The position numbers were made by a program, and so were the translations under genes. From Bordetella parapertussis (GTDB lineage Bacteria > Pseudomonadota > Gammaproteobacteria > Burkholderiales > Casimicrobiaceae): a DNA stretch of 64,000 bases. The stretch lies in the NCBI GenBank assembly GCA_943331295.2, contig CALQLA020000007.1, positions 62,001 through 126,000 on the forward strand. The letters run 5' to 3'. Below, piece after piece: positions 47,750 to 51,969 of this stretch. The stretch's first letter is position 1, and the number at the start of each line of letters is the position of its first letter. The notes under the pieces were generated by a model. The model searched no databases, had not been told where the DNA came from, and saw only the letters and a list, made by a program, of their open reading frames with translations.

Positions 47750-48325
47750 CTAGCGCGGCTTTTCCTCGTCCGGCCCCGATTGCTGCGCAGCATTGAAGTT
47801 CGGGAACGGGAAGGCCGTGAAGAGCCCGCGGGTCTGGTCCTGCATCCGCTGCTGCATGTCCATGAACAGCTTCGCGCTCTGCTCGAGGTAGTTGCCGAGC
47901 ATGCCCTGCATCGCGGGCGCCTGCATCTGCATGAACTGCTTCCACAGGTCCGGCGTGATCATCATCTTGTCGCCGTAGATCTGCTGCGCCTGGTCCTGCA
48001 GCTTCTTCTGGATGGCGAGGAAGGCGGAGACGTTCTGCTCGATGTAGCTGCCCATGATCGTCTGCTGGGCGCTGCCGTAGAAGCGGATCATCTGCGCCAG
48101 CATTTCCGACGAGAACATCGGCATGCCGGCCGACTCCTCCTCGAGGATGATCTGCAGCAGGATGGCGCGGCTCAGATCGTCGCCGGTCTTCGCATCGATG
48201 ACCTTGAACTCGATGTTCTCGAGCACCATCACCTTCACATCCGCGAGCGTGATGTAGCCGCTGTTGGCGGTGTCGTAAAGGCGGCGGTTCGGGTATTTCT
48301 TGATGATGCGCGGCGAGTCGCTCAT
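47750..48325 (-). CDS. phaR: Polyhydroxyalkanoate synthesis repressor PhaR
   Basis: [60 protein letters not shown]. Confidence 0.97.
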
Positions 48326-48411
48326 TGCGTACTCCGTGGATGGAACGCCGACATTATAAACGTTTGATTTATTGGATGTTTGGAAATCCGGCATGGCGTC
48401 GATATCAACGA

Positions 48412-48428
48412 TTGCTGCGTTGCAGCAA
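48412..48428. promoter_or_regulatory. Perfect palindrome TTGCTGC-GTT-GCAGCAA, candidate PhaR operator
   Basis: Fits the CTGC-N3/4-GCAG type site described for PhaR; lies between phaR and phaP, 7 bp upstream of a -35 hexamer. Confidence 0.75.
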
Positions 48429-48435
48429 AATCTCC

Positions 48436-48464
48436 TTGACACCCGTTTCCGGCATCCCTACAAT
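48436..48464 (+). promoter_or_regulatory. Sigma70-type promoter for phaP
   Basis: TTGACA-N17-TACAAT. Confidence 0.85.
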
Positions 48465-48606
48465 TGGTTTGGTGCGGTGCAGCATTTGCCGCTTTCGGGA
48501 GAGTTGCCTGAGCCTCCCGGCCCGTGCCAGGCCGCTGCCGCACGGGGAGGGACGCGCAACTCGGGCCGATTCAAGAACCTCTCTACCACCTCATCAAAGG
48601 AAGACC

Positions 48607-49161
48607 ATGTCCACGTATAACCCTTCGCTCCAGTTCGCCGAACTCAACAAGGCCAACGTCGCCCAGGCGTCGAGACTCGCCGCCATCGCCGTTGAAAACG
48701 TCGAGAAGCTGATGAAGCTGAACCTGGCCACCGCCAAGTCGGCATTTGCCCAGAGCGTCGAAGGCGCGACGGTTGCCGCGTCGGTAAAGGATGTGCAGGA
48801 ACTGATGGCGCTGCCGACCAAGTACGCCGAGAACAACGTGCAGACCGTGCTGGGCTATTCGCGCAGCCTGTACGAAATCGCCGCCGAAGCGCAAGCGCAG
48901 ATGTCGGCGATCGCCGAAGAAGCCGCCGCCGGCTACACGAAGGGTTTCGCGTCGTGGGTCGAAAAGGCGAGCGCGTCGGCGCCCGCTGGCTCGGAAGTTG
49001 CTATCAATGCAATGAAGTCGACCGTTGCCGCGACCAGCGCCGCGTTCGACCAGTTCCAGAAGGCCTCGAAGCAAGTGGTCAGCCTGGCCGATGCGAGCGT
49101 TCGCGCCGCTGCGGACAACGCTGCCAAGGCTGCCGCCCCGAAGGGTCGCAAGGCCGCCTGA
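48607..49161 (+). CDS. phaP: Phasin family protein
   Basis: FAELNKANVAQASRLAAIAVENVEKLMKLNLATAKSAFAQSVEGATVAASVKDVQELMALPTKYAENNVQTVLGYSRSLYEIA. Confidence 0.96.
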   Translation: MSTYNPSLQFAELNKANVAQASRLAAIAVENVEKLMKLNLATAKSAFAQSVEGATVAASVKDVQELMALPTKYAENNVQTVLGYSRSLYEIAAEAQAQMSAIAEEAAAGYTKGFASWVEKASASAPAGSEVAINAMKSTVAATSAAFDQFQKASKQVVSLADASVRAAADNAAKAAAPKGRKAA

Positions 49162-49326
49162 ATGCGGTTGGCGCAGTTGGATTAGGTAGCAGGCAACGAC
49201 TGAACAGGCGCACCGCAGGCACCTTTGCGGTGCACCGTTGAACCAAGATGGTTCGGCCGATGGCCGGGGCGTCCGAGGCTGGGGGTTGAAGTGCGCAGCC
49301 CGGCCCCCACCTGCAATCGAGCACAA

Positions 49327-49392
49327 CTGTATCTTTTTCCTCCTCCTAAGAGATACAGACTCCGCCCCGGCAGCGATGCCGGGGTTTTTTTT
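49327..49392 (+). ncRNA. Candidate small RNA 3' module: CU-rich loop hairpin + terminator (5' end unknown)
   Basis: CTGTATCT-TTTTCCTCCTCCTAAG-AGATACAG hairpin, then CCCCGGCA-GCGA-TGCCGGGG-T8. Confidence 0.6.
49365..49392 (+). terminator. Strong rho-independent terminator
   Basis: CCCCGGCA-GCGA-TGCCGGGG followed by TTTTTTTT. Confidence 0.95.
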
Positions 49393-49415
49393 GGGGCGGC
49401 GTCCGGCGGCAGTCG

Positions 49416-49880
49416 CTACTGCTGCGCCCGCTGGCATTCGACGTTCATCTCCCTGCAGACACGCAGCACGCGCTCCAGCAGCTGCGCCGTCGCCGCCGGC
49501 ATCGATCCCGAGGCCGCCGACGAGATCATCAGGTGCGCGACGTCGTCGCCGAGCGGGCTCACCTGCATGCCGGCGATGCGCTGGCCGTCGGTGAACTCGA
49601 TCGAGCGCCGCGCGTCGTCCTCGCGCGTGACGGTCACGCCCTGCGCCGCCCGGATCGCGCGCGCGGCGGTGGCGTACACCTTGTCCGCCGGGGCATCGAG
49701 GATCACGGCTGCCGTGTCGTAGGTGACGCCGTTGGGACCCGGCTGCGTCTGGCTCATCTGCTCGACCCGGCCGATCGCGCGGCGGGCGACGAGTGCCCAC
49801 TGCGCGTCGGCGATGCCGGAGGTGAGCATCAGGACGGCGCACAGCGATGCCATCACCGGGCGGACAAGGACGTGGCGCAT
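49416..49880 (-). CDS. Secreted hypothetical protein
   Basis: Signal peptide MRHVLVRPVMASLCAVLMLTSGIADA; AGGAGG Shine-Dalgarno just upstream of ATG 49880. Confidence 0.7.
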   Translation of the reverse strand: MRHVLVRPVMASLCAVLMLTSGIADAQWALVARRAIGRVEQMSQTQPGPNGVTYDTAAVILDAPADKVYATAARAIRAAQGVTVTREDDARRSIEFTDGQRIAGMQVSPLGDDVAHLMISSAASGSMPAATAQLLERVLRVCREMNVECQRAQQ

Positions 49881-49893
49881 GGTCGTGCCTCCT

Positions 49894-51195
49894 CTATTGG
49901 CGCCCGTCGCGGCCGGCGAATTCGCGGCCGCCGCCCTCGCGCTGGGCGCCCGATTGCTGCTGCCGCTGCGCGCCCATCGTGCGTGCCTGGTGATCCTGGT
50001 CGAGCTGGCCGTAGGCTCCTCCGGCGCGCGCGCCGGCGCTCGTCGCGGCGCCGCCGTCCGGCCCTCACGCCGCGCTGCCGTGGACGTAGCTGCCGGTGCC
50101 GGGGTTGTACGCCGAGACCGCGCCCGCGCCGCCGTTGGGGCCGTAGACCGCGCCGCCGTGCGCCCACGCGCCGGTTGCCGGGTTGTACGCGGTGCCGGCC
50201 TTGGCCACGCCCCCGTACGGCCCGTAGACCGCGCCGCCGCGCGCCCACGCCCCGTTCGCCGGGTCGTAGTAGACGGCGCCGGCGTACGAGTACGGGTACG
50301 GGTAGTAGACGGGGACCGGGCCCGCGACGAACTTCGGCGGGCCCGCGGTGACGATGATCTCCGCGGGCGTCGTCGCGACGAATATCGCCGGCACGGCATG
50401 GCCCGCGTACGGCCTGGGCGGGACCTGCGCGCGAACCTCGGCGAAGCTCGCATCGGCCGGGAGTGCCGCGAATGCCGGCGGCAGGACGCCGGTGGGCGTC
50501 CACGGCCCGTTGGCTTCGGGCGCCGTCAGCCAGATGCCGTTGTTGAGCAGGTACCAGCGTTTGCCGTCGGCGTCGTTGAAGACATCCCAGTTCGTGTTCA
50601 CGGCGAACGACAGCGGCGTGCCGGCGACCGGGGCGAGCACCGGCCGGCCGTCGAACACCACGAGGCTCGCGGGCCGGTCGCTGAAGAAGATCGCGGGCGG
50701 GTCGTTCTTCACCGCGGATTCCGCCGGCTTTTCCGCCGGTGGCGGCAGCCAGAGCAGGACCGTGTCGAGCGGGTAGCGCTTCTCGCCCATGTTCGCGAGT
50801 GCCCGCTTGATGGCCGCCTCGAACCGCGTGGCCTGGGCCGTGTCCGCCGACGGGAAGCGCGTGGCCACCAGTTTCGCGTCGGTGAGCGCCACCGAGCGAC
50901 GCGCGAGATCGGTCTGCCTCGCGAAGGCGACGTCGATCGTGCCGAGGATCGGCGCCTTCGCGCCGTTCGGCGTGATGCCGATGGCGACCCGCGCGTTGAG
51001 CGCCTGTCGTTCCGGCCACGAGATCACCTGCGGCTGGTAGATCGTCGCGCTGCCGGCCTCGCCGGCGACCGTGTGCGGCCACGTTCCACTGTCCGGCGCC
51101 GCCGCGACGGCCGGCGCCGACGCGCCGGCGAGCCCGAGCCACAGGCAGCAAAGGACGATGCGCAGGCCCCGGGATTGCCGGCGACGGTCGGTCAT
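49894..51195 (-). pseudogene. Secreted repeat protein (WP...Y/YGP.GG-repeat tail) with in-frame TGA at 50065-50067; ORF-track version is 50065-51195
   Basis: Signal peptide; WPHTVAGEAGSATIYQPQVISWPERQALNARVAIGI...; tail YYDPANGAWARGGAVYGPYGGVAKAGTAYNPATGAWAHGGAVYGPNGG...YVHGSAA*GPDGG...; frame reopens to a TAG at 49894-49896. Pseudogene status not certain. Confidence 0.6.
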
Positions 51196-51216: not shown

Positions 51217-51969
51217 TCAGAACATGTGCTGGCCGCCGTTGATCGCGATGTTGGCGCCGGTGAGGAAGGCCGCTTCCTGGCTCGACAGGTAGGCGACCAG
51301 CCCCGCCACCTCGTCGGGCTTGCCCAGACGGCCCATCGGGATCTGCGGGATGATCTTGCTGTCGAGGACTTCCTGCGGGATCGCCATCACCATTTTCGTG
51401 CCGATGTAGCCCGGCGAGATCGTGTTCACCGTGACGCCCTTGCGCGCCACTTCGAGCGCCAGCGCCTTGGTGAAGCCGTGCATGCCGGCCTTGGCCGCCG
51501 AGTAGTTGGTCTGGCCGAACGCGCCCTTCTGGCCGTTCACCGACGAGATGTTGATGATGCGGCCCCAGCCGCGGTCGACCATCGAGTCGCAGACCTGCTT
51601 CGTCATGTTGAAGCAGCTGTCGAGGTTCGTCTTGATCACCGCGTCCCAGCTCGCCTTGTCCATCTTCTTGAAGGTCATGTCGCGGGTGATGCCTGCGTTG
51701 TTGACCAGCACTTCGACGGGACCGAGGTCCTTCACGACCTTCGCCACGCAGGCCGTGCACGAGTCGAAGTCGGCGACGTCGCAGGGGTACGCGTAGAACG
51801 TGTGGCCGTCCCGCTTCATCGCTTCGAGCCATTCCGCCGCCTTGGTGTTGCCCGGGGAATGCGTGGTGACGACCGTGTAGCCCAGCGCCGCGAGCTTGAT
51901 GCAGATCGCCTCGCCGAGCCCGCCCATGCCGCCCGTGACCAGCGCGACCCGATGTTTGTCTTGTGTCAT
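51217..51969 (-). CDS. phaB: Acetoacetyl-CoA reductase
   Basis: RVALVTGGMGGLGEAICIKLAALGYTVV...NNAGITRDMTFKKM...NISSVNGQKGAFGQTNYSAAKAGMHGFTKALA. Confidence 0.96.
   Translation of the reverse strand: MTQDKHRVALVTGGMGGLGEAICIKLAALGYTVVTTHSPGNTKAAEWLEAMKRDGHTFYAYPCDVADFDSCTACVAKVVKDLGPVEVLVNNAGITRDMTFKKMDKASWDAVIKTNLDSCFNMTKQVCDSMVDRGWGRIINISSVNGQKGAFGQTNYSAAKAGMHGFTKALALEVARKGVTVNTISPGYIGTKMVMAIPQEVLDSKIIPQIPMGRLGKPDEVAGLVAYLSSQEAAFLTGANIAINGGQHMF

Follow-up and report, generated by a model that had tools for sequence, protein, structure and literature searches.

We describe a conserved double-hairpin element with an anti-Shine-Dalgarno loop at the end of the 3' untranslated region (3'UTR) of the phasin gene phaP, found in a 64,000-nucleotide stretch of DNA (the window). 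The reading that we favor, with a probability of roughly 0.6, is that the element gives rise to a 3'UTR-derived small RNA (sRNA), which would be produced along with phasin upon titration of the repressor PhaR by PHB and would repress mRNAs with a strong Shine-Dalgarno (SD) sequence. The toxic or double-hairpin RNAs of Burkholderiales have so far been linked to growth arrest and carbon use, with no clear physiological role apart from these. Two findings, the element's conserved place in the phasin mRNA and the PhaR operators in front of relatives, point to a testable role, the coupling of PHB (bioplastic) storage to translation, and the former would add the phasin mRNA to the hosts of 3'UTR-derived sRNAs. 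The pattern suggests that carbon storage may be wired to lowered translation of other genes.

The host gene phaP (48607-49161, plus strand) encodes a Phasin_2 protein (PF09361, E = 1.2e-23) and ends with a stop codon at 49159-49161. The 3'UTR that holds the element (49162-49392, plus strand) is longer than that of most relatives and has extra hairpins. Divergent from phaP lies phaR (47750-48325, minus strand; PF05233 and PF07879), which encodes a PHB-responsive repressor, and further downstream is a gene for a phaB-like acetoacetyl-CoA reductase (51217-51969, minus strand; assigned by Pfam). Two genes between phaP and phaB (49416-49880 and 50065-51195, minus strand) have counterparts in some relatives, and a Pfam search gave no match for either.

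To define the element, we examined its arms, fold, and terminator. The 8-bp arms CTGTATCT and AGATACAG flank a 16-nt interval, TTTTCCTCCTCCTAAG, at 49327-49358, and this stem-loop pattern occurs once in the 64-kb window, even when two mismatches are allowed, and in none of 100 shuffled versions. The stem, the loop interval, and the terminator with eight Ts all lie where the preliminary description had placed them. It had described an 8-bp stem with a 16-nt loop, but in the best fold hairpin 1 (49327-49358, plus strand) has an 11-bp stem (49327-49337 with 49348-49358) and a 10-nt loop, UCCUCCUCCU (49338-49347, plus strand), and the short linker to the terminator (49359-49363, plus strand) measures 5 nt, not 6. 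Hairpin 2 (49364-49392, plus strand) is the intrinsic terminator found by the terminator scan, with its stem at 49364-49385 and the eight-T run at 49385-49392. The 71 nt at 49324-49394 fold with -30.9 kcal/mol, compared with -15.0 ± 2.7 kcal/mol for shuffled sequences (z = -5.9). Upstream of the CU-rich hairpin, in the window (49285-49310) and at the same place in relatives, there is a further hairpin with TTGAA in its loop; it recurs in many of the family's phaP 3'UTRs, and GTCCCAAC and a CU box, GATGTCTCCT, often come after it.

The element is widespread in the window's betaproteobacterial family, which was sampled as records of uncultured Betaproteobacteria, Burkholderiales, and Casimicrobiaceae. 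A nucleotide search revealed copies in 13 of 60 relatives, with the loop kept in all and stem positions changing pairwise. A covariance model found the element in 35 of 64 family genomes and in six of seven genera, a count that excludes four weak matches (L114, L116, L117, and L118), three of which resemble the Rfam family RF02278 and one of which is apparently spurious. Genus g2 (17 genomes) gave no match to the covariance model, and neither did a search for the element in a plasmid collection. The loop was nearly invariant among relatives: CTCCTCCT is present in 33 of 35 distinct hairpins and TCCTCC in all 35. The preliminary description, which had likened the loop to an anti-SD sequence and named its lack of conservation as a finding that would speak against an sRNA, is thus borne out on this point, with the loop sitting in a conserved RNA.

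Covariation was observed in both helices. Among 38 copies, 16 of the 19 pairs had changed on both sides and 96.8% of the cells were paired, in an alignment fitted to the covariance model and hence favoring structure; none of 500 shuffled or slid versions came near the observed value. When the raw hairpins were paired from their ends without the model, 97.9% of the eight outer pairs were formed and 36 double changes were seen, while shuffled arms reached at most 86%. In three genomes (G032, G078, and G079), much of the stem has given way to different sequence that is again complementary, and the loop has stayed the same. From this comparison, the element is a conserved structured RNA, and the loop rather than the stem appears to be what selection keeps. 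An inverted repeat is also what a protein-binding palindrome in the DNA would look like, but that reading is hardly credible given that the arms change with compensation, that the layout with the terminator is constant, and that the element has one orientation relative to phaP.

The position of the element is conserved as well. At 32 family loci, the first gene upstream of the element encodes a phasin in the same orientation, and its stop codon is 35 to 165 nt away in most cases, as judged from genes called by a simple script; sampled members of this phasin gene cluster are Phasin_2 proteins by Pfam. At these loci, phaR is usually divergent and phaB is often convergent and downstream. In several relatives the gap between stop codon and hairpin is 35 to 60 nt, and the shortest gaps (about 35 nt) therefore leave little room for a separate promoter. 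Consensus-match scans of 48300-49900 in the window returned a single promoter-like site, the phaP promoter TTGACA-17-TACAAT (48436-48464, plus strand; 11 of 12 consensus positions), and a single terminator-like site, 49364-49392, with no sigma-70-like promoter between the phaP stop codon and the hairpin. No other terminator separates phaP from the gene that follows, so the phaP mRNA and the proposed sRNA would share this one. The tie to phasin proposed in the preliminary description is therefore supported by the phasin gene directly upstream at the 32 loci, and of the two origins it had offered, a 3'UTR-derived or an independent transcript, the former is most likely, given the shared terminator and the lack of a promoter after the phaP stop codon. 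A shared host terminator, no promoter of its own, and a kept linkage to the host gene are features of the 3'UTR-derived class of sRNAs, and all three are seen here.

Additional copies are also found. The window's own genome has a second copy, 88% identical and lying between other genes, and some family genomes have an additional copy, either in tandem or at a distance. In genus g3 (L094, L095, L106, L113, and L115), tandem copies are spaced about 180 to 240 nt apart downstream of phaP. In four extra copies (C15 of the own genome and copies in G002, G011, and G075), a dyad similar to ATTAGA-N8-TCTAAT lies upstream, with a -10-like hexamer 9 nt after it; the arrangement was noticed by eye, and a pattern search also recovers three of the four. 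Dyad sites lie at 4902 in L086, at 4985 (minus strand) in L094, at 5176 (minus strand) in L103, and upstream of 5186 in L095. Judged by these motifs, the dyad copies probably have their own promoters with an activator or repressor site, and the family thus has copies inside the phaP mRNA and copies with a possible promoter of their own.

These observations bear on whether the element has no target in trans and serves the phaP mRNA only in cis, as a conserved 3' stabilizer, a barrier to RNases, or a landing site for Hfq. Such a role would fit the position in the 3'UTR and the shared terminator, and since phasin is made in very large amounts, the stability of its mRNA would matter. We nevertheless consider a purely cis-acting element unlikely: a stabilizer needs its stem and not its loop, but conservation is strongest in the loop and the stems have been replaced, and copies away from phaP exist, one of them in the own genome and four with the shared upstream dyad. 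The conservation of the loop above the stem favors an action in trans.

The phaP promoter is flanked by two PhaR-type operators, TGCTGCGTTGCAGCA (48413-48427) upstream of the -35 box and TGGTGCGGTGCAGCA (48470-48484) downstream of the -10 box, the second of which is conserved at phaP in the family. Both fit the core of the Sinorhizobium meliloti PhaR motif, YGCRNYGCR; in that organism, phaP1 and phaP2 each have two boxes and the sRNA gene mmgR is repressed by PhaR (PMC12542648). In Ralstonia eutropha, phaP1 is repressed by PhaR, which leaves the DNA for nascent PHA granules (PMC11332829). With its promoter flanked by such operators, the 3'UTR RNA would therefore be made during PHB synthesis: nascent PHB granules would titrate PhaR off, and the phaP promoter would then transcribe the phaP mRNA with the element as its 3' end.

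PhaR-type boxes were also found in front of related RNAs. At the RF02278-like loci of the family (L069-L078), a strict box, TTGTGC-N2-YGCA, is present about 70 nt upstream in nine of ten cases (0.008 expected at each), figures that are somewhat generous for the own family since the pattern was chosen after viewing the phaP boxes and some RF02278-like promoters. For RF02278 members of other families, a strict box lies within 150 nt in 8 of 30 cases, with about 0.25 expected.

For the sRNA itself, we propose a molecule made up of hairpin 1 with its CCUCCUCCU loop, the short linker, and the terminator of the phaP mRNA, which supplies the U-tail. An RNase, probably RNase E, would free it from the phaP mRNA, by analogy with S17S, where RNase E cuts a longer RNA to a 67-nt CU-rich RNA and the target is repressed 4- to 7.5-fold (PMC11722255). 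Hfq would probably stabilize the freed sRNA, again by analogy, and a U-tail is present. The loop would then pair with extended SD sequences (AGGAGGAA) and lower the translation of selected mRNAs. Published relatives speak for pairing in trans: besides the repression by S17S, overexpression of ncS27 slows growth and its antisense RNA acts oppositely (PMC5688073).

The loop is complementary to AGGAGGA, and we compared its predicted pairing with the start regions of genes at the locus. The phaB gene has an extended SD sequence in 18 of 19 genomes, with a median loop duplex of -14.5 kcal/mol; in the window its SD sequence, AAGGAGGAG, gives -14.9 kcal/mol. The other medians were -7.2 kcal/mol for phaP, -8.8 for phaR, -6.9 for phaA, and -2.3 for rimO. 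On predicted pairing, phaB is the best candidate target among the locus genes. No co-evolution of the loop with the start regions of phaB, phaR, or phaP was observed, as own pairs were no better than swapped ones. The phaB result may reflect only a strong SD, because a near-perfect anti-SD sequence pairs with any strong SD. A ranking of all window genes by loop pairing was unreliable, as the simple gene finder took some shadow frames.

The same energies bear on autoregulation, in which the loop would bind the phaP SD, either in its own mRNA molecule or in a different one, and limit phasin synthesis. There is a precedent in MmgR, which lowers PhaP1 and PhaP2 protein in S. meliloti (PMC8401924). 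Nevertheless, autoregulation is improbable here, as the phaP SD sequences are short (AAAGGA), their median duplex has half the energy of that of phaB, and the loop and the phaP start region do not co-vary.

We then turned to the order as a whole. A search for phasins in 150 genomes of the order revealed CU-rich hairpins directly behind phasin genes in other families. A second model, R2, was built from the window's family only and run on 250 genomes of the order without phasin guidance; an independent search placed the phasin and phaR genes of the 64 genomes that had R2 matches. Fourteen of the 72 matches outside the family lie directly behind a same-strand phasin gene and five more lie beside phaR, compared with about 0.01 expected by a rough estimate. 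These linked matches span about ten families. Most of the other R2 matches are weak (26-42 bits), some being RF02278 members or chance hits, and some phasin-linked copies of other families match RF02278 at 28.9-40 bits, below its cut-off. We interpret these matches as a single broad group of double-hairpin RNAs that exists in several sequence versions, a common origin for every version being unproven. At two phaP-linked loci of another family (L140 and L143), the RNA and a 6S RNA gene are convergently oriented with under 100 nt between them, and there is a cobalamin riboswitch at a distance of about 1 kb. At three others (L222 in G092, L224 in G252, and L216 in G132), a CU-rich hairpin RNA and phaR point away from each other, and no Phasin_2 match was detected between the two; either the phasin there has diverged or the sRNA stands free beside phaR.

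Finally, the element was compared with known RNA families. No Rfam family matched anywhere in the window at its gathering threshold. The preliminary description had pointed to a family of betaproteobacterial toxic sRNAs and suggested possible membership; this family is RF02278, which comprises the Burkholderia double-hairpin RNAs ncS03, ncS05, ncS27, and ncS62 and to which Bordetella S17 is reported to be similar. Membership is not supported: at 20.2 bits the element stays below the gathering threshold of 50, four pairs of stem 1 are broken, no family genome exceeds the cut-off, and RF02278-like RNAs are separate loci in related genomes. The two nevertheless share two hairpins of which the second is a terminator, a short linker, a CU-rich anti-SD loop in hairpin 1, several copies per genome, and betaproteobacterial hosts, and RF02278-like loci score 31-35 bits with R1, a model built at the family level. 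They differ in stem sequence (CUGUAUC) and in location, the element lying in the phaP 3'UTR and most RF02278 matches elsewhere in the genome. The RF02278 5' box, UGUCUCCUCC, is absent from the window copy, while most relatives of the element have a GUCUCCU-like box. Members in Burkholderia cenocepacia have their own mapped start sites (PMC4603805, PMC5688073). That the element is itself a free-standing RF02278 RNA with its own promoter, beside phaP by chance, would agree with the common layout, the CU motifs, and the reach of R1. It is a very unlikely reading in view of the low score, the lack of a promoter after the phaP stop codon, the separate RF02278-like loci, and a phasin position that recurs across families. 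We conclude that the element is probably a distant relative of RF02278.

Two other families were rejected as assignments. Anti-hemB (RF02837, Burkholderia RNA 7) had the best sub-threshold E-value (0.0023) and shares a terminator and a CU-rich loop, but scored 23 bits against a threshold of 49.5. MmgR/alphaR8 (RF00519) of the alphaproteobacteria scored 18 bits against 41. Like the element, MmgR is an sRNA tied to PHB; it reduces the amount of phasin protein, and PhaR/AniA represses its gene (PMC8401924, PMC12542648), but it is a separate gene, whereas the element is part of the phaP transcript. We tentatively suggest, at somewhat less than even odds, that PHB status controls a set of anti-SD RNAs throughout the order, made up of the phasin-mRNA kind and the RF02278-like kind with PhaR operators, which together would correspond, in betaproteobacteria, to MmgR, and that the long-sought function of the toxic sRNAs would be a carbon-storage-dependent damping of the translation of metabolic genes. 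To our knowledge, no 3'UTR-derived sRNA in a phasin mRNA is known, and no description of one was found in the literature searched, whose coverage leaves out most subscription journals. In enterobacteria and Vibrio, 3'UTR-derived sRNAs use the terminator of the host mRNA and have a conserved position behind one gene, and the element resembles them in both respects. We therefore advise against filing it as RF02278, and it is best called a phasin-mRNA-encoded double-hairpin RNA.
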